From contig JALWTS010000031.1 of assembly GCA_027077805.1 (NCBI GenBank), positions 62,001 through 126,000 of the forward strand: DNA of 64,000 bases. Direction: 5' to 3'. Every line of letters starts with the position of its first letter. Position 1 is the stretch's first letter. The position numbers and the translations under genes are program-made. The notes under the pieces are model-generated. The model was given only the letters and a program-made list of their open reading frames with translations. It was not told where the DNA came from and did not search any database. This document shows positions 4,590 through 13,979 of this stretch, in pieces. This DNA comes from Gammaproteobacteria bacterium (GTDB lineage: Bacteria > Pseudomonadota > Gammaproteobacteria > JABHGC01).

Positions 4590-5156
4590 TCACCAAGGCA
4601 TAAACCCATTCATAAAAGAGATAGGACGAGAAACATTTTGATTCATTTGAGCAATATCATCGCGTAGTTGTGAAGTAGTCACCGTCATGACATTCAAAGA
4701 ACGATTCATCGCATCCATATTGCTTAACATTGAATCTAAATTATTTACCATAGGATACAAGGTTTGCATGGTCACTGTGACTTCCTGCATATTACTTGCC
4801 ATTCGCCCAACATTTAGACTTAATTGATCCAGATTATTGGAAATATGAACCATATTGTCAGCGACCACCGTCATATTACGATCCACACTTTTGGTCAGTT
4901 GAGAAACATCGGAAGTCAAACTGTAGATAAGATAAAAACCATAAGAAGCTAAAATAATAAATGCAAACAAACTAGGATAAACCACTAATTCCCATCGGTG
5001 GGCACTGACTTCAAAACTTTGAGCTAAACGTTCTAAAGCATCACTGCCCGCGGTGTCATTACCAATAAAATCATTGATGCCTTGATTAGTTTCCGATCCT
5101 GCTTGACCATTTTTATAATGATGATTAGTTTGATTCATATTATCCTTCTCTGACAT
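4590..5156 (-). CDS. Single-pass membrane protein with long polar coiled coil; function unknown
   Basis: 188 residues. Residues 1-57 are hydrophilic (Asn/Gly/Thr-rich), about 58-80 form one clear membrane segment, and 81-175 are a heptad-like region rich in Asn, Met, Ser and Asp with almost no Lys or Glu. The C-terminus ends with a hydrophobic FMNGFMPW. The pattern suggests an inner-membrane anchor with a helical extracytoplasmic or cytoplasmic rod. It is convergent with the fimX-like gene and lies 184 bp downstream of the DUF302 gene on the same strand, behind the ParA-like gene. I recognise no named family. A co-operating partner of the ParA-like ATPase is a guess from position only. Confidence 0.6.
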   Translation of the reverse strand: MSEKDNMNQTNHHYKNGQAGSETNQGINDFIGNDTAGSDALERLAQSFEVSAHRWELVVYPSLFAFIILASYGFYLIYSLTSDVSQLTKSVDRNMTVVADNMVHISNNLDQLSLNVGRMASNMQEVTVTMQTLYPMVNNLDSMLSNMDAMNRSLNVMTVTTSQLRDDIAQMNQNVSRPISFMNGFMPW

Positions 5157-5176
5157 AGTTACGCCTTTATAGTATT

Positions 5177-5192
5177 CAAGTTACCAAGTTAC
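5177..5192. repeat. 8-bp tandem duplication upstream of the coiled-coil gene
   Basis: CAAGTTAC occurs twice head to tail, 20-35 bp before the start of the leftward coiled-coil gene. It is one of several short perfect tandem duplications found in spacers of this window. Confidence 0.8.
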
Positions 5193-5264
5193 CCAGCCTT
5201 TTTACGCTCCTCCTCCCAATTTTACGATATTTCATTAATTCAGACTAAATTTATTATTATCATA

Positions 5265-5335
5265 AGTGCATTTTTTACGCTCATAAAATGATAATATACC
5301 TTTTTTTTGTTCATTATTGCAACTAAAAATGCACT
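5265..5335. repeat. Spaced 11-bp inverted repeat downstream of the DUF302 gene
   Basis: AGTGCATTTTT at 5265-5275 and its exact reverse complement AAAAATGCACT at 5325-5335 flank 49 bp of AT-rich DNA, just after the stop of the DUF302 gene. The loop is long for a terminator; a regulatory protein site or chance are alternatives. Confidence 0.6.
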
Positions 5336-5341
5336 ACACGA

Positions 5342-5923
5342 TCAAAAATCACCGATGATAGTGCGATTCATCATATCAACCAAACTAGTTTTCACTCTCT
5401 CAGCCTGTTGTTTTAACTCAGGTGGCAAAGGCTTACCGCCATATAACATCAAATCCATATTAAACGTATACAACCAAAATTTTCCTTGCTTATCTTGGAT
5501 TAAGCTAATACGACAGGGTAAAAATGCGGAATAAGCATCATTGTAATCTAACATATCTGCTGCAGTTTGAGCATCACAAAACATATAAATTTTGACAAAT
5601 CGATAGTGAGTATGCCCCTCTGCTTTAATTTGTTGATGCAGTGGTAATTCACCAACATTTTTTAAGTTATGCTCATTGGCAATTATTTTCAAACTTTGAT
5701 CAATTTCCTCAATCGACAGGCCATCAACCACAGGGAATCGCCACACACTTGCATCAACAATGCTTTTCTTCTCATAAGTTGTTTTTAAAAAACGAAAATA
5801 AGTCGTTAACGCTTTTGTATCCCATTGCGATAACTCGGTTTTCAATAGCAATAAACCCGTTCCCAAAATAACTAACGTCAGCAATCCCAAGCAAGCCAAA
5901 GCATTCCAAAGCCATTTTAACAT
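5342..5923 (-). CDS. Membrane-anchored DUF302 domain protein
   Basis: 193 residues from the ATG at 5923. A longer open frame exists but would overlap the upstream gene, and a Shine-Dalgarno AAGGAC lies 8 nt before this ATG. Residues about 7-27 form one membrane segment or uncleaved signal. The rest contains a DUF302-like domain (block HYRFVKIYMFCDAQTAADML, then FLPCRISLIQDKQGKFWLYT and NMDLMLYGGKPLP). DUF302 proteins are small dimeric domains of uncertain biochemical role, often periplasmic in sulfur- or metal-metabolising bacteria. The gene starts 4 nt after the stop of the ParA-like gene, so the two are surely one transcript. Function unknown. Confidence 0.72.
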   Translation of the reverse strand: MLKWLWNALACLGLLTLVILGTGLLLLKTELSQWDTKALTTYFRFLKTTYEKKSIVDASVWRFPVVDGLSIEEIDQSLKIIANEHNLKNVGELPLHQQIKAEGHTHYRFVKIYMFCDAQTAADMLDYNDAYSAFLPCRISLIQDKQGKFWLYTFNMDLMLYGGKPLPPELKQQAERVKTSLVDMMNRTIIGDF

Positions 5924-5927
5924 GGTT

Positions 5928-6605
5928 TTAGTCCTTAATAATATCTGGATATAAATTGGCAACAAGTGCCATAAATTCTCTGGCGGCTTTGCTACGAGCA
6001 TGCATTTCAAACACAGCTAAGCCCTCACTAAAAGAACGTCGATATAAGGTACGTTGATATAAACGAGATTTAACAAACTTAGTATTGGGCAAGGTAAGCA
6101 ATGCGGCAGCAGTTTCGTCTGATTCCCTTACCGCATGATGAGTATCTGCTCGATTTAAGAAAGTGATGATTTCACAACGAGTTTTTTTATGTTCTCGATA
6201 GAGTTTATCCAACATTTGTAAAAAGCGTTGCGTGGACCAAATATCCGCCTGACTGGGTGGCACTGGAACAATAATTCGATCAGCAAGCAACAGTGCTTGT
6301 TGCATTCTTTCTAAATCAGCCGTACCAACATCCATTAATACTTGTTGAGATTTTCGACTCTTTTTCTGATTAGCGGTATCGGTTTTAAATTTATCAAACT
6401 CAGCAATGCTTTGCACTGATAGCAATGGTTTATAATTTTCTTCTCTTCTTAATTCCACAGCATCCGTTAAGGTTAATTGCGGATCAAGATCAAATAATAC
6501 CGTTTTTTGTTCCGCATTTGATAACCAAATGGCCAAATTAAACGTTACGGTACTCTTTCCTGACCCACCTTTTAAACTAGCAACTACTGTAATCATACAA
6601 GACAC
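5928..6605 (-). CDS. ParA/MinD-family ATPase without an adjacent ParB
   Basis: 225 residues. Residues 9-16 are KGGSGKST, the deviant Walker A of ParA/MinD ATPases with its signature first lysine. FDLDPQ (about 38-43) is the Walker A' motif, and VLMDVGTADLERMQQALLLAD near 90-110 corresponds to the Walker B region with its usual DxG. No N-terminal DNA-binding domain is present and no ParB or parS-like gene is near, so a role in chromosome segregation is unlikely; small orphan ParA proteins often position membrane or cytoplasmic complexes. The GTG at 6605 has AAGGGA at ideal distance; the ATG at 6596 is the alternative. It is the first gene of the ParA-DUF302 pair. Confidence 0.8.
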   Translation of the reverse strand: MSCMITVVASLKGGSGKSTVTFNLAIWLSNAEQKTVLFDLDPQLTLTDAVELRREENYKPLLSVQSIAEFDKFKTDTANQKKSRKSQQVLMDVGTADLERMQQALLLADRIIVPVPPSQADIWSTQRFLQMLDKLYREHKKTRCEIITFLNRADTHHAVRESDETAAALLTLPNTKFVKSRLYQRTLYRRSFSEGLAVFEMHARSKAAREFMALVANLYPDIIKD

Positions 6606-6774: not shown

Positions 6775-9700
6775 TTAACTATCATCCCCAGAAGAATCAG
6801 AACTATCTGTACCATCCTTGCGACTACCATCCTGCTTCAAACGAATACCTCGTCGAGTAGATTTTTTACGAGTACTACTACGTTTTTTAGTCGTAGAACG
6901 TTTGGTTTTCGTTGCAGGCTTGGTTTCATCAACCGCAGTTGGTTTAGGCTGTTGCTGTTGTACATCATCTTCACCAGAATTACCATCCGTTTCTACTGAA
7001 TTTGCCTCTACTGGCTTATTTGCAGTCACTTCTGCTTCTTTTGGTTTTGACTCATCAGACTTATCAACAGCGACTTTCACCTTAGATTCTTCAGATTTAT
7101 CATCCGCTTTACCATCAACTTTACTGTTAGCAGTCTCATTTTGAGCATCGACTTCTTTTTCTAAATGACGAATCACACCTGTTGGCTCATTCGATTTCGT
7201 ACTGGATTTAGAACTCGCCAGTTCTGATTTAAGCTCAGAACTGGCATGAGGATAAGCCGTTTCTTTACTTGAACTGACCGCAGGTTGCACTTTAGGATTA
7301 TCCCCTAAACCATGATGTTCGACTGGCACACCACAAATATCACAAATTGATTTTTTCGCATCCATACAACCCAATGGAATCACAATTAAGGTTAATAAAG
7401 TTGAAACTAAAACCCCCGCTGCTAACGAAATGGCCATACCATTAAAAATAGGATCAGACAAAATAAACATTGACCCAGCCACTAAGGCAAACGCAGTAAT
7501 CACAATAGGACGAGTCCGAGTTTTACAAGATAAAATCACGGCATCTTCCACAGGCGTACCTTTTTGCACCTCATGCAAGGAAAAATCCACTAATAAAATT
7601 GAATTACGCACAATAATCCCTGCCAAAGCAATCCAACCAATCATAGACGTTGCAGTAAACTCTGCCCCCATTAAAGCATGAGCAGGAATAATCCCTAATA
7701 AGGTTAATGGGATGGGTGCCATAATCACCCCAGGCACTTTAAAGTTACCAAATTCCCAGACCACTAAGACATAAATCAAAATCAATGCCACACAGAAGGC
7801 AATGCCCATATCTCTAAAGGTTTCATAAGTCACTGTCCACTCACCTGCCCAAGCAAATGCCGCTTGGGCATCATTTTCAGGTGGCCCCAACCAAGTTGCC
7901 GAGACATCCGTCGTACCATCAGGTGCGGTATAATTTGCTAATTCATCATGAACATCTAACATTCCATAAACAGGTGCCGCATACTCACCCGTAACGTCAC
8001 CCACGACATATTCGACGGAACGTAAATCTTTGTGGTAAATCGTCCGATCATATAATACCTCTTCAAATTCACCTAATTCGGCTAAAGACACCATTTTCCC
8101 AGATTGAGATCGGATCGGTAAATTTAACAATGGCGCTAAATCAGAACGCACCCCTAATGGTACTTGAATGATAATTTTCGTTGGTTCTAAAATACTGGCA
8201 TTTTCTTTTTTCACTGTCCCTAAACTAAAATCTCCCATTGCCATTGATAAATTACGATTAATGTCTTGAACGGAAATCCCCAAACGAGATGCTTTTTCTT
8301 TATCAACGACAAAGCGTTTATAATAGTAAGGTTCTTCCAAATAATTATCCACATCAGTAATACTGGTTGATTTTTTAAACATTTCGGTGACATCTTGGGC
8401 AAACTTAATCCGAGTCTCTTGATCGGGCCCATAAATTTCTGCCACGACCGATTGCAAAACTGGTGGACCAGGTGGCATTTCCACAACAGAAAACTTAACA
8501 CCGGTTGCTTGTACTACCTCAGATTTTGTTAACAACTCTCTTGCTTGTAGTGCGATCTCATGACTGCTACGTTTACGCTCTGTTTTATCTAATAACTGAA
8601 TTTGAATATCGGCATGCCACGGTTTATTACGCAAATAATAATGTCTGACCATACCGTTGAAATCAAAGGGTCTTGCTGTCCCCACATAGGTTTGAATCGC
8701 GGTTACTTCTTCAATTTCACGCAATTTCGATGCCATATGGTGGGTTAAATTGGCTGTTTCAGGTAATGCCGTACCTTCAGGCATATCAATGACCACGCTA
8801 AATTCTGGTTTATTATCCAAAGGCAACATTTTCACTGTGACGAGTTTAAAATAAAACATGGAACAAGCCGCGAAAAATGCCCCCCATAACACTAATTTAA
8901 ATAAGCGTTTTTTTGCAGGACTCGAAATTAACGGCGTTAAAATCTTACGATAAATTTTCTCCAGCTTTTCCGCTTCCTCATGTTCACGCTTTTCCGCATT
9001 ACGCAAATAACTCATACTTGGTTTAAGGGCAACCGTTAACCACGGTGTAAATACAAATGCCGCAAATAATGAGACTAACATCGCCACAGAACCTAATGCT
9101 GGAATCGGTTCCATATAAGGCCCCATCATCCCCCGTACAAAGCCCATAGGCAATAAGGCCGCAATTACGGTGAAAGTCGCTAGAATTGTGGGATTCCCCA
9201 CTTCTCTTACGGCATCAATGGCCGTTGCAGCATCCATTTTGCCTTCTTCTAACCATCGCCTGTAAATATTCTCTACGACGACAATCGCATCATCCACAAG
9301 AATACCAATGGCAAAGATCAAGGCAAACAAACTCACCCTATCAATCGTATATCCCATTAAATAGGCGATAAAAATCGTAAACAGTACGACAACGGGAATG
9401 ACCAAAAATACCACAAACGCAGGTTTCAATGCTCTAAAGGCAATAATAATCAATACAATCACCGCACCAGTGGCTTTAAAGATTTTCAAAATCAATTCCG
9501 TCACTTTATCGCCTGCCGTTTTACCATAATCCCGAGTAATCGCTACTTCAACATTAGAAGGAATCAATGGATCACCTACGTCAGGATGTTGTAATTGTTC
9601 TACTTTAGAAATAATATCATTGGCAACGACAACACCATTGCTCCCCTGTTTTTTAGCGACGGCAATGGTTACCGCAGGCATACCATCGGGGGAATTTTGA

Positions 9701-10632
9701 TTGCCAGCATACGCAGCACCTGTATAATAAGTCACTAACTGATCCGTATCTTCTGGCGCTTGCGTTACTTTGGCGACATCACGAACATACACTAATTGCC
9801 CTTGATAAGAACCCAGAATCAAATTTTTAACATCATCGGCTGACCGCAAAAATTCTCCTGTTTCCACTTGAAAATGCGTCCCCCCTGCTTCAACATCCCC
9901 TACTGTTACCTGAGTATTAGCACTTTTAATGGTGTTGGCAACTTGATCTAAGGTCATACCATGACCGCTTAAACGATCTGGCATAATTTCAACTCGAACC
10001 TGCTCAGAACGTCCACCAACAATAAAACCTTTCCCCGTATTCGTAATTTCTTTCAGGCTTTGTAATACATCTAAAGACAACAAACGTAATTGCGCATCAT
10101 CCACATCGGGATCACCATCCTCATCTAAGTCCTTAGACCATAAAGTAATATTTACGACCGCCACATCATCAATACTTTTCGGTTTCACTAAAGGTTGCCT
10201 CACACCCGCAGGAATTTTATCCATATTCGACTGTAATTTATCATGCAACTTCACCAAAGAATCATTCATTTCCTCACCAACAAAGAATTGAACCGTTACA
10301 ATCCCTTGTCCTCGTTGTGCGGCTGAGTAAACATGTTCAACCCCAGTAATCTCACTCATCATCCGTTCTAAAGGATCAATGGCTTTACTCGCAACTTCTT
10401 CAGCAGAAGCCCCAGGATATTGAATAAAAATATCCACCATTGGTACGGAAATTTGTGGGTCTTCTTGACGGGGCGTGATGAGAACCCCTATCCCGCCCAT
10501 AAATAACATTGCAAAAAAGAATAAAGGTGATAATGGCGAGTGAATAAACGCTTTGGCCATACCCCCTGCTAAACCTAAGGCTTCTTCTTGCTGTGAATGT
10601 TTGTTATCATTTTGTTGTTCTTTGTCTGCCAT
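6775..10632 (-). CDS. RND efflux permease with extended charged C-terminal tail
   Basis: 1285 residues; the inner-membrane proton-driven pump of a tripartite RND system. The N-terminus has the TM1 and porter pattern of the family (PLSPLFFFAMLF, then PGASAEEVASKAIDPLE). TM4 carries the double aspartate in FAIGILVDDAIVVVENIY (about residue 445). TM10 carries VRNSILLVDF (about 1009), with Arg where AcrB has its proton-relay Lys. The transport core ends near 1088. Beyond it is a tail of about 197 residues with CxxC and HH near its start, a Glu/Lys/Ser-rich middle and a basic Thr/Lys/Arg-rich end. An acidic EF-hand-like loop, DLDEDGDPDVDD, sits in the periplasmic porter region near 170. The adaptor gene lies 37 bp upstream; no TolC-type gene is in the window. 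Substrate unknown. Confidence 0.92.
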   Translation of the reverse strand: MADKEQQNDNKHSQQEEALGLAGGMAKAFIHSPLSPLFFFAMLFMGGIGVLITPRQEDPQISVPMVDIFIQYPGASAEEVASKAIDPLERMMSEITGVEHVYSAAQRGQGIVTVQFFVGEEMNDSLVKLHDKLQSNMDKIPAGVRQPLVKPKSIDDVAVVNITLWSKDLDEDGDPDVDDAQLRLLSLDVLQSLKEITNTGKGFIVGGRSEQVRVEIMPDRLSGHGMTLDQVANTIKSANTQVTVGDVEAGGTHFQVETGEFLRSADDVKNLILGSYQGQLVYVRDVAKVTQAPEDTDQLVTYYTGAAYAGNQNSPDGMPAVTIAVAKKQGSNGVVVANDIISKVEQLQHPDVGDPLIPSNVEVAITRDYGKTAGDKVTELILKIFKATGAVIVLIIIAFRALKPAFVVFLVIPVVVLFTIFIAYLMGYTIDRVSLFALIFAIGILVDDAIVVVENIYRRWLEEGKMDAATAIDAVREVGNPTILATFTVIAALLPMGFVRGMMGPYMEPIPALGSVAMLVSLFAAFVFTPWLTVALKPSMSYLRNAEKREHEEAEKLEKIYRKILTPLISSPAKKRLFKLVLWGAFFAACSMFYFKLVTVKMLPLDNKPEFSVVIDMPEGTALPETANLTHHMASKLREIEEVTAIQTYVGTARPFDFNGMVRHYYLRNKPWHADIQIQLLDKTERKRSSHEIALQARELLTKSEVVQATGVKFSVVEMPPGPPVLQSVVAEIYGPDQETRIKFAQDVTEMFKKSTSITDVDNYLEEPYYYKRFVVDKEKASRLGISVQDINRNLSMAMGDFSLGTVKKENASILEPTKIIIQVPLGVRSDLAPLLNLPIRSQSGKMVSLAELGEFEEVLYDRTIYHKDLRSVEYVVGDVTGEYAAPVYGMLDVHDELANYTAPDGTTDVSATWLGPPENDAQAAFAWAGEWTVTYETFRDMGIAFCVALILIYVLVVWEFGNFKVPGVIMAPIPLTLLGIIPAHALMGAEFTATSMIGWIALAGIIVRNSILLVDFSLHEVQKGTPVEDAVILSCKTRTRPIVITAFALVAGSMFILSDPIFNGMAISLAAGVLVSTLLTLIVIPLGCMDAKKSICDICGVPVEHHGLGDNPKVQPAVSSSKETAYPHASSELKSELASSKSSTKSNEPTGVIRHLEKEVDAQNETANSKVDGKADDKSEESKVKVAVDKSDESKPKEAEVTANKPVEANSVETDGNSGEDDVQQQQPKPTAVDETKPATKTKRSTTKKRSSTRKKSTRRGIRLKQDGSRKDGTDSSDSSGDDS

Positions 10633-10669
10633 AATTTAAGCCTATCTCACTATTTATCAATCAATGAAA

Positions 10670-11800
10670 TTATTGCGAATGATTGCTGGGTAACACCCGC
10701 CCACTTGGATTTGCCATAATTCTTTCACCCGCTTTTAAACCAGATAATACGGTAATTTGATCACGACCATATTTTTCACCAACACGAATTAACCGTAATT
10801 CTGCTTTGTTTTCACTATTGATAACATACACACCTGGTAAACTCCCCCGCCATTTAATCGCAGAAACAGGAATCAATGGGACACTTTTAACCTCTGAATT
10901 GACATCAGGCACGCGTACTTCAACATACATTCCAGGTAATGCCCCTGTACTCGTTGAAATATTGAATTTCACAGCAACTGTATGGCTGTCACTTTGGGCA
11001 ATTGGAAAGATTTGATCCACTGAAATCATAATTTCATTTGGACTAATATCTAACTTAGCAGGGACGGTCATTCCCTGAGAAATCCCTGACATTAAACGAG
11101 CAGGGACATTGACTAATACTTGTAACTCTTGAGTATTCGCAAATTTTAGTAAAGGCTGTCCGGGTTGCACGGTATCCCCAACTTCGACAAATTTACTGGT
11201 AATCAAACCATTAAAAGGTGCCATACTTTTAGCATCACGCAATTTTGATTCAATCGCACGCACTTGAGCTTTTGCTTGCTCAATCGCACTTTTTGCTTGT
11301 TCAATTTGAGTGCCTTGCGCATATAACTGTGCCTGACGATCCAAACCAGGTTGGTTCGTTCCCATCATGGATGAGGCAGGCTTGCTAAACATATTGTCAA
11401 ACATTGAAGGTACGCCCATGCCTGTCATACCCGTATTTTGTTGAGGAGAATGCAACTCTCGGGTGTATTGCATACTCGCATTACGAAAGGCCGCGTCGGC
11501 TTTTGCCAAGTTTGCTCGTGCGGAATTATATTTTGCTAATAATTCCGTTTCATCAATCGCTACTAATAAAGTTTTTGCAGCAAAGGCATCCCCTTCCTTA
11601 CCTGCTAAATAACGCACTCGACCAGGCAGTTGAGCAGCTAATGTGACTTCTCGTTTCGGGATTACCGTGCCACTTAAAGACACGGAACTTCCCACTTGTT
11701 TTTCTATGACTTCCACAATACCACCACCAACCACAGAATCTGCGGTAGCAATTTGTACTGAAAATAGTAAAAAAAACAGCACCCAGCATTTCCTCATCAT
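10670..11800 (-). CDS. RND periplasmic adaptor (membrane fusion protein)
   Basis: 376 residues with a cleavable signal peptide (about 1-20, ending ATADS). The order of parts follows HlyD/AcrA adaptors: a first lipoyl half (RVRYLAGKEGDAFAAKTLLVAIDE), a helical hairpin (about 75-190), a second lipoyl half (GLITSKFVEVGDTVQPGQPLL) and a beta-barrel/membrane-proximal part. The hairpin contains a Met/Gly/Ser-rich insert (about 115-140) that is unusual for the coiled coil. It links the RND permease encoded 37 bp downstream to an outer-membrane channel. The start can be either of two consecutive ATG codons (11800 or 11797), behind GAAGGGG. Confidence 0.92.
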   Translation of the reverse strand: MMRKCWVLFFLLFSVQIATADSVVGGGIVEVIEKQVGSSVSLSGTVIPKREVTLAAQLPGRVRYLAGKEGDAFAAKTLLVAIDETELLAKYNSARANLAKADAAFRNASMQYTRELHSPQQNTGMTGMGVPSMFDNMFSKPASSMMGTNQPGLDRQAQLYAQGTQIEQAKSAIEQAKAQVRAIESKLRDAKSMAPFNGLITSKFVEVGDTVQPGQPLLKFANTQELQVLVNVPARLMSGISQGMTVPAKLDISPNEIMISVDQIFPIAQSDSHTVAVKFNISTSTGALPGMYVEVRVPDVNSEVKSVPLIPVSAIKWRGSLPGVYVINSENKAELRLIRVGEKYGRDQITVLSGLKAGERIMANPSGRVLPSNHSQ

Positions 11801-11819: not shown

Positions 11820-11885
11820 AATAAACTAATAAACTCAATTAAAAAAAAATATATCCATAATATCTCTTACGCAAATATCTCTTAC
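11820..11885. repeat. Two short tandem duplications in the spacer before the adaptor gene
   Basis: AATAAACT is repeated head to tail at 11820-11835. AATATCTCTTAC occurs at 11859-11870 and again at 11874-11885 (15-nt period); the second copy contains the stop codon of the SCP2-like gene. Confidence 0.75.
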
Positions 11886-12319
11886 ATCGCTCGTTCTACT
11901 TGAGCCATGATAGCAAACATTCGCATAAATGCACCTGCCAATGTCGGATTTTTTAGCATTTGTTCATAATTTCCCAACACAAATCTAAGTTTACCTGTCG
12001 CAACGGCCATGCCTAAGGTCATCATACCAGGCGGATTAGCAAACCATTGTTGCCAATATTTTTCATCGGATCGAATATCCCATTGTAGTAAAATTTGTTG
12101 TTCAAATGGGGTAACCCTTATTATTTGCCCAGATTTGACTTCCATGATTGATCTAGGCTGTGCTTCTTTAAGCATGCCATAAGCAACAATCGTGCTAAAA
12201 TCAATTTTAGCCAAAGATTGCGATAATTCACTATTTTCATTCCATATGGCTTGATAAACCTTCATCCATGGCATAGAAAACAATTCACTCATGATCTCAT
12301 CCAAAAAATCGCTTGACAT
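11882..12319 (-). CDS. Small SCP2-like protein upstream of the RND genes
   Basis: 145-residue soluble protein with no signal peptide. The central part (about 60-130: KSGQIIRVTPFEQQILLQWDI, then GMMTLGMAVATGKLRFVLGNYEQML) resembles sterol-carrier-protein-2-like lipid-binding domains, which bind hydrophobic ligands in a groove. The match is by pattern only and could be wrong. It lies 81 bp upstream of the RND adaptor on the same strand, so it may be first gene of that operon, which would fit a hydrophobic substrate. The start is the ATG at 12319. Confidence 0.55.
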   Translation of the reverse strand: MSSDFLDEIMSELFSMPWMKVYQAIWNENSELSQSLAKIDFSTIVAYGMLKEAQPRSIMEVKSGQIIRVTPFEQQILLQWDIRSDEKYWQQWFANPPGMMTLGMAVATGKLRFVLGNYEQMLKNPTLAGAFMRMFAIMAQVERAM

Positions 12320-12485: not shown

Positions 12486-13979
12486 ATGGCGGCTGAAAAA
12501 TCAATTCAAGAACAACTCAACAATTTAGAAACACATCTTAAAAAAGAAAACCCTGTATTACTGGATGCGGTCAAAAATTTTAAGGCCTTGGATCAAGTCG
12601 CCTATAAAATGGGATTGCTAAGTAGAGAAGAATCCTATGCGACTCAGATTCCTTGGTGGCCGCTTATTTCGATTTTAGGCACATTTTCTGCTGGAAAATC
12701 CAGCTTTATCAATACCTACCTCGGTCATAAACTACAACGCTCTGGCAATCAAGCCGTGGATGACAAATTTACGGTGATTACTTATGGCAATGATATTCAT
12801 ACCCTGCCCGGTGTTGCCTTGGATGCCGATCCTCGTTTTCCGTTTTATCAAATGAGTAAAGACATTGAAACGGTTGCGAAAGGGGAAGGGGAATTAATTA
12901 ATCGTTATCTTCAACTCAAAACCTGTCCTAGCGATGTTTTAGAAAATAAAATTATCATTGATTCCCCTGGGTTTGATGCTGATGCTCAACGTACCGCAAC
13001 TTTAAGATTAGCCGAACATATTATTGACCTTTCAGATATGGTATTAGTGTTTTTTGATGCTCGCCATCCTGAACCAGGTGCCATGCAAGATACTTTGAAA
13101 CATCTAGTCTCTTGTAGCATTGAACGTGCTGACGCAGGTAAATTTTTATACATTCTCAACCAAATGGATACAACGGTTAGAGAGGATAATTCTGATGAAG
13201 TAGTAGCAGCATGGCAACGCTCGTTAGCAGAAACAGGTTTAACAGCAGGAAGATTTTACACAATTTATAATAAAGATTTATCCCTACCTGTTGAAGATTC
13301 GCAACAACAACAGCGTATGGATACTAAGTGGAATGAAGATATGTTAGAAATTACTGATCGTATGGCAAAAGTTGAAGTTGAACGTGCGTATCGTATTGTC
13401 GCTGCGTTGGAAAAAACCGCCACTCATATTGAAGATAAGGTCGTCCCTGAACTCACCCAACAACTACAACGCTGGAAGAAAGCAGTATTATGGGGTGATG
13501 GCATTGCCTTTGGCATATTTTTTGGTTTATTGTTCTCTATTAATAGCAAATTTGCCATTACTGAATCCGACTGGTGGCAAAATCTCCCCCAACAATCGAC
13601 TCAACTTGCCATTGCCGTTGGTGGGTTAGTCGTCCTATTACTTGGCATTCATTTTGGGATTCGTCAATTAACCGCACAACATATTGCTCAGGGTTTAAGC
13701 AAAAATCAACAGTTAAAAGGCAATATAATGCGGGCTTTCTTAAAAAATACGGTATTTTGGCGTAGTGTATTTAATACCAAACCAGCGGGCTGGGGGAATC
13801 GTACCCATAAACAAATTCGCCAAATTTTAGATAATGTGAATCGGTTTGTACAAGTACTGAATGATCATTTTACGAATCCATCCGGTCATAAAAATGCCAG
13901 CCAAACAAAATCAACTGAACACAATTCAATCAATACTAAAACAACGCCCTCTTTAGAAGCAATTTCAGATAGTCAATAA
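12486..13979 (+). CDS. Dynamin-like GTPase with two membrane segments
   Basis: 497 residues. The G domain shows G1 GTFSAGKSSF (about 64-73), G3 DSPGFD (about 158-163) and G4 NQMD (about 224-227), as in bacterial dynamin-family proteins. A helical stalk follows. Two hydrophobic segments at about 335-352 and 371-392 form a hairpin that should anchor or tubulate the inner membrane; the C-terminus is polar and Ser/Thr/Asn-rich. Bacterial dynamins act in membrane fusion, repair or stress. It is followed after 17 bp by the ACT-domain gene, so it heads a four-gene rightward group. The specific role is unknown. Confidence 0.85.
   Translation: MAAEKSIQEQLNNLETHLKKENPVLLDAVKNFKALDQVAYKMGLLSREESYATQIPWWPLISILGTFSAGKSSFINTYLGHKLQRSGNQAVDDKFTVITYGNDIHTLPGVALDADPRFPFYQMSKDIETVAKGEGELINRYLQLKTCPSDVLENKIIIDSPGFDADAQRTATLRLAEHIIDLSDMVLVFFDARHPEPGAMQDTLKHLVSCSIERADAGKFLYILNQMDTTVREDNSDEVVAAWQRSLAETGLTAGRFYTIYNKDLSLPVEDSQQQQRMDTKWNEDMLEITDRMAKVEVERAYRIVAALEKTATHIEDKVVPELTQQLQRWKKAVLWGDGIAFGIFFGLLFSINSKFAITESDWWQNLPQQSTQLAIAVGGLVVLLLGIHFGIRQLTAQHIAQGLSKNQQLKGNIMRAFLKNTVFWRSVFNTKPAGWGNRTHKQIRQILDNVNRFVQVLNDHFTNPSGHKNASQTKSTEHNSINTKTTPSLEAISDSQ

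Follow-up and report, generated by a model that had tools for sequence, protein, structure and literature searches.

A ParB-less ParA ATPase encoded in a conserved exporter operon linked to sulfur-globule proteins

What does a ParA-type ATPase act on when it is encoded among membrane proteins and without ParB? We analyzed a 64,000-nucleotide stretch of contig JALWTS010000031.1 from a gammaproteobacterium (the window), in which an orphan ParA is followed by a membrane-anchored DUF302 protein and a single-pass coiled-coil protein (CC). The initial annotation had treated these three genes as a candidate positioning system for a membrane complex. We find that the operon extends upstream of ParA through an RND exporter and its adaptor, MFP (6775-11800), beyond the three genes first noted. 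Transcription on the minus strand runs in the order small protein (12319-11882), MFP, RND, ParA, DUF302, CC. The features of the locus are:

4590..5156, minus strand: CC, single-pass coiled-coil protein with one transmembrane (TM) segment and a Met/Asn-rich rod
5342..5923, minus strand: membrane-anchored DUF302 protein, 193 aa (Pfam DUF302, E=1.3e-11)
5928..6596, minus strand: ParA/ParF-like ATPase, 222 aa, with a complete deviant Walker A motif (AF2 pLDDT 92)
6775..10632, minus strand: RND exporter (HAE1/AcrB type) of a sulfur-oxidizer subfamily, 1285 aa (Pfam ACR_tran)
6778..7365, minus strand: extended C-terminal tail of the RND protein, rich in Lys, Ser, and Thr and reaching about 196 aa past the conserved core
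6835..6855, minus strand: RND tail motif RRGIRLK, residues 1260-1266, proposed to stimulate ParA; invariant in 61/61 loci
10670..11800, minus strand: MFP, the periplasmic adaptor that serves the RND exporter, of HlyD/CusB type (Pfam HlyD_D23); upstream of ParA in 53/58 testable loci
11882..12319, minus strand: small conserved accessory protein, 145 aa, upstream of MFP, with no Pfam match; same slot in genomes G016 and G089
12486..13979, plus strand: dynamin-like GTPase (Pfam Dynamin_N), divergent from MFP

The deviant Walker A motif of ParA (KGGSGKST, with the signature lysine for ATP-sandwich dimers) and the fold of its AF2 model in Foldseek place the protein in the ParA/MinD (A/D) family. 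K9, K14, D36, D38, and D89 are invariant across an alignment of 25 orthologues, and alignment favors ATG 6596 over GTG 6605 as the start codon. The closest solved sequence relatives are TP228 ParF structures (4dzz/5u1g, E about 5e-14). Foldseek likewise ranks TP228 ParA/ParF best (5u1g, 4e03), followed by MipZ and McdA, with BcsQ structures also among the fold neighbors. By inspection, no MinD-type C-terminal amphipathic membrane-targeting helix is apparent: the chain stops right after the last fold helices, and its C-terminal end is not conserved among orthologues. Four conserved basic residues near the C-terminus (R178, R182, R187, and K203) would fit DNA binding. No parB lies adjacent to the locus. 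The only ParB of the genome is encoded on contig C39 beside its own Soj, and the ParA of the locus is therefore an additional, ParB-less ATPase. The initial annotation had described an intact deviant Walker A motif, no DNA-binding domain, and no ParB partner, and our alignment and genome search bear out all three.

Several known systems resemble this one in part. Like TP228 ParF of the ParF-ParG system and other small plasmid ParA proteins (type Ib), the ParA of the locus combines a length of about 210 aa with a deviant Walker A motif and the lack of a DNA-binding domain. However, ParF, its best sequence and fold match, is only 20-22% identical to it, and in contrast to ParF-ParG the gene is chromosomal, sits in an exporter operon, and has no recognized ParG or centromere gene at the locus; it also carries a conserved motif of its own, NRxDTHHAVRE. 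ParABS (Soj-Spo0J) shares the ParA fold, but the locus lacks ParB and the genome has a separate ParABS pair; ParB too carries a short basic motif at its terminus (MVKKKRGLGRGLDALLG in the genome's own ParB, L237). McdA-McdB and other ParA/MinD cargo systems likewise comprise an extra chromosomal ParA-type ATPase encoded with cargo genes (PMC10241942). No McdB or carboxysome genes were seen in the neighborhoods that we read.

Is the locus a conserved unit? An ortholog scan of 84,980 species genomes yielded 92 orthologous ParA loci, of which 80 were kept. All 80 are gammaproteobacterial by title, and many belong to sulfur oxidizers (Chromatiaceae, Sedimenticola, Thiothrix, Thiosymbion). RND precedes ParA in 61/64 testable loci, and CC follows it on the same strand in 56/59. 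DUF302 follows in 21/59, and in more distant loci a membrane-anchored TPR protein takes or shares its slot. ParA and CC also occur together in 16 of the 17 ParA genomes among 93 genomes sampled one per family (Fisher p=7e-15). The dynamin-like gene is divergent from MFP in the window and in Chromatiaceae, and immediately follows CC in Thiothrix and other loci. The membrane-anchored DUF302 protein that the initial annotation had placed 4 nt after the ParA stop is confirmed there by Pfam and by coordinates, and CC is, as described, a single-pass protein with an Asn/Met-rich helical rod. The annotation had asked whether CC recurs beside ParA in relatives, and it does. Its view of the third gene as weakly linked, across a CC-DUF302 gap of 185 bp, does not hold, since CC is a far more constant neighbor of ParA than DUF302 is. 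An orphan ParA with membrane proteins thus stands as a conserved unit, and positioning of a membrane complex is plausible; what had been missed is the connection to an exporter and to sulfur globules.

That connection lies in the RND-ParA interval, which in the window is empty and only 170 bp long. In most relatives it holds exported proteins, among them a DUF4412 (LolA-like) protein in 38/65 testable loci, and Pro/Tyr-rich YRFRP-repeat proteins or a sulfur-globule protein (SGP). In genome G033, the exported protein encoded directly upstream of ParA matches the Pfam sulphur globule protein family PF17228 (E=1.4e-5), its score of 26.2 bits falling just short of the 26.7 cut-off. A profile built from SGPs located elsewhere recovers canonical SGPs inside the interval at many further loci (L086, L091, L093, L094, L097, L106, L109-L111, and others). 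The envelope proteins SgpA-D of Allochromatium vinosum belong to PF17228, and SGPs are encoded inside the ParA/CC operon in many genomes. In A. vinosum, sgpD is reported to lie beside a hydrophobic/amphiphilic exporter gene (PMC10386293). In the other genome of the window's family, G001 (L033 / L227), an SGP lies directly upstream of ParA, with CC on other contigs. The window's own genome has an SGP outside the operon, at a distance of about 70 kb on the contig that bears the locus.

We searched the 93 genomes for SGPs with PF17228 and found them in 18. In tests that treat families as independent, which holds only partly, and to which shared ancestry may contribute, 17 of the 18 genomes with CC (weakly detected in G057) coincide with the SGP set (p=1.9e-16), as do 16 of the 17 with ParA (p=6.7e-15). 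The sulfur-oxidation markers dsrA and soxB are broader than SGP, and both associate with ParA (p=4e-8 and 2.5e-7). Within dsrA-positive genomes, ParA occurs in 15/17 with SGP and in 1/16 without (p=2e-6), and among genomes without SGP dsrA no longer predicts ParA. The correlate of ParA is therefore SGP, and we rejected dsrA and soxB in that role. Physical linkage, which is less affected by the non-independence of families, agrees: of the 18 SGP genomes, 10 carry an SGP gene no farther than about 5 kb from the ParA/CC locus, where random placement would predict 0.45 (P=1.5e-12). The ParA/CC operon is thus genetically linked to sulfur globules. Some genomes depart from the pattern: G058 carries the operon with no SGP at the Pfam level, and the draft assemblies G001 and G043 have ParA and SGP with no RND of the subfamily detected. 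Ca. Thiodictyon intracellulare, an endosymbiont for which the absence of both sulfur globules and sulfur dissimilation has been reported (PMC8195481), has an RND gene broken into several frames (L112) and a ParA Walker A motif with two glycines replaced (KGRSSKST), alongside general genome decay.

In the Chromatiaceae loci L049, L055, L066, L081, and L090, exported YRFRP/FRPL-repeat proteins replace SGP in the RND-ParA slot. Comparison of the YRFRP-repeat and other intervening proteins with NCBIfam and Pfam returned no relevant family apart from SGP (L184:9418-9840) and DUF4412, and Sedimenticola-type proteins similar to the Chromatiaceae ones matched neither database. The YRFRP/FRPL-repeat proteins are possibly unrecognized globule coat proteins, as their slot and composition hint.

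How could a cytosolic ATPase reach this machinery? The C-terminal tail of an AcrB-type RND protein is cytosolic by known topology. In 61/61 loci with a long RND frame, the tail ends in the motif RRGI[RKQ]L[KRN]. Lys, Ala, Ser, and Thr usually abound in the tail itself, which is basic in nearly all loci; in L056 and L068 the whole tail is net acidic and the motif is kept. Judged from composition only, the tail is probably disordered. RNDs of this subfamily (55-65% identity to that of the window) occur in 17/93 genomes, all within the CC set, and the next-best RNDs in other genomes reach 46% identity or less, with the motif absent from all those read. Conversely, all 15 ParA-positive reference genomes with a subfamily RND have the motif, counting G057, G010, and G075, where it was located in a shifted frame or on a neighboring contig. 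It is also present in G089, where the ParA slot lies beyond the contig end. ParA/MinD ATPases are typically engaged by a disordered N-terminus of the partner protein that carries positive charge (PMC10241942). CC has an acidic N-terminus and the RND tail is basic, so the RND tail fits this description better. The RND exporter is the likely ParA partner and would act through its RRGIRLK tail. A point against the analogy is that the RND motif is C-terminal, whereas known partner motifs are N-terminal.

A second subfamily RND, away from the ParA locus (L269:5513-9262, contig C2 of G085), ends in GRRGIRADKKPTK, a variant of the tail motif. Tail-less paralogues of the subfamily (L270:2854-10135, contig C7 of G057; L271:5811-12555, contig C30 of G016) adjoin genes that read as flavocytochrome c sulfide dehydrogenase and cytochrome c, and these gene neighbors suggest that the whole exporter subfamily serves sulfide oxidation.

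Family f81 separates ParA from the rest of the operon. The single-contig genome G081 has the order RND-SGP-DUF4412-TPR-CC-dynamin, with no ParA orthologue and an RND without the tail motif. Six further f81 genomes with a readable region keep SGP, DUF4412, CC, and dynamin in order, with TPR detected in 5/6. None of the seven has ParA between DUF4412 and CC, and the RRGIRLK-type motif is absent from 13/13 RNDs found in the family. In a tree of RND cores, 9/10 f81 proteins group as one clade, which branches from within the tailed proteins (SH-aLRT 100, 97), the tenth row (L284) being wrong-frame (branch length 10) and disregarded. This nesting points to secondary loss of the tail, which fits its loss together with ParA. 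Counting paralogues by their own neighborhood and not by genome, only three ParA/tail contrasts are independent, and all three are concordant (p=0.25). Since f81 keeps the operon without ParA, the remaining components do not depend on it.

Gene order, co-occurrence and linkage with SGP, invariance of the tail motif, and the joint absence in f81 define the genetic architecture of this system. We think it probable that the locus is a variant of a conserved operon for sulfur globules, in which the ParA module positions or partitions exporter/globule-assembly complexes. Its general plan would be MFP, RND, exported coat or coat-like proteins, DUF4412, ParA, TPR and/or DUF302, and CC, plus the dynamin-like GTPase. 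The MFP-RND complex, CC, and the anchored periplasmic proteins would mark an inner-membrane site for coating or feeding the sulfur globules of the periplasm. RRGIRLK at the end of the cytosolic RND tail would stimulate ParA dimers, themselves presumably nucleoid-bound. They would thereby space exporter complexes, and hence globules, and divide them between daughter cells. A connection between the exporter complex and the globule in the periplasm may be made by CC, probably in a transmembrane role, and by the TPR and DUF302 proteins; the surrounding membrane may be shaped by the dynamin-like GTPase. For the stronger proposal, that ParA acts across the inner membrane to position and partition a storage inclusion of the periplasm, with the C-terminal RND motif RRGIRLK as its partner, we consider the chances evenly balanced.

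The main competing explanation is that ParA is an assembly or regulatory ATPase that gates the RND exporter and the exported coat proteins, in the manner of BcsQ in cellulose secretion. ParA lies within an exporter operon, its absence coincides with that of the RND tail in f81, and BcsQ structures are among its fold neighbors. Against this, the closest fold and sequence relatives are the partition ATPases ParF, MipZ, and McdA, and f81 keeps exporter, SGP, and CC without ParA. Assembly thus needs no ParA in that family, and we regard a BcsQ-like role as rather unlikely, if still a serious competitor.

A second explanation turns on CC, which comprises a net-acidic N-terminus of about 62 aa, one TM segment at about 63-81, and a coiled-coil rod with 12% Met, 13% Asn, and a hydrophobic periodicity peak at 3.5 residues, ending in a conserved RPxxFMNxFMPW. 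Profile matches to Prominin, MCE, DUF948, and others all fell under cut-offs, and we read them as coiled-coil noise. The cytosolic N-terminus of CC could be the direct ParA adaptor, leaving the RND tail motif to bind the membrane, nucleic acid, or another protein. No gene downstream of ParA is a more constant neighbor than CC (56/59), and G001, in which no RND of the subfamily was found, has CC. However, its N-terminus is net acidic in every orthologue aligned and poorly conserved (mean conservation 0.21 against 0.81 in the TM segment), and f81 retains CC but has neither ParA nor the RND tail. A basic CC N-terminus as the partner segment is thereby rejected, ParA contact with the N-terminal 57 residues of CC, as the initial annotation had suggested, is not favored, and an adaptor role for CC appears distinctly improbable.

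Sulfur oxidizers share ancestry, and gene content and order can therefore correlate without function; on this account sulfur-metabolism genes merely cluster and ParA serves an unrelated cargo. We give this little credence, because order is kept across many families, SGP linkage is far above chance, and ParA and the tail are absent together. Positioning of pili or chemoreceptors with the neighboring FimX/PilZ pair, toward which the initial annotation had leaned, is least credible of all: the pair adjoins the locus in the window and mainly in Sedimenticola-type loci, Thiothrix and most distant loci retain the ParA/CC core without the pair, and we rejected the link as local synteny only.

We thus favor positioning of the exporter and its globules by ParA. 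As a protein, the ATPase is of the ParA/ParF-like kind, and the globule envelope proteins SgpA-D are known; what would be new is a form of ParA/MinD positioning for which we propose a novel cargo and a novel type of partner. In the open literature we found no paper linking ParA to sulfur globules, with part of the papers naming both checked in their text; one that names both only speculates on ParA in the positioning of carbonate biominerals. The literature found on globule envelope proteins describes no positioning module. If the proposal is correct, both cargo class and partner type would be undescribed for the ParA/MinD family in that literature, and a periplasmic cargo would be added to ParA/MinD positioning. 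For McdA-McdB systems (PMC10241942), as here, the partner would be expected to present a disordered segment of positive charge, but the proposed cargo differs in being a periplasmic globule assembly reached via a membrane exporter, and the candidate partner motif in being C-terminal and on an RND protein. Descriptions of sulfur globules put them at random positions in many species and at the poles in some (PMC10386293). Little is known of their distribution and inheritance, for which the operon offers named candidates and a mutable seven-residue motif. It also gives a shared context to an exporter family and to uncharacterized DUF302, CC, DUF4412, and YRFRP-repeat proteins.

The DUF302 protein has an N-terminal helix (residues 2-31) followed by a DUF302 domain predicted to be periplasmic. 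Its AF2 model (pLDDT 91) matches PDB entries 1q9u and 1j3m in fold. Cys116 and Cys137, invariant in an alignment of 17 orthologues, fall in the predicted periplasmic part and may have a redox or persulfide role. Distant CC-like single-pass proteins adjoin cell-wall genes (mraY, murG region) on contig C15 of the window's own genome (L176:6329-6886), and form a tandem pair in G035 (L179:7102-8251). Further CC-like proteins are encoded some 6 kb upstream of dsrA in G058 (L173:8716-9252) and G063 (L174:18032-18601), which belong to different families; the one at L173 is a second, divergent copy in G058.
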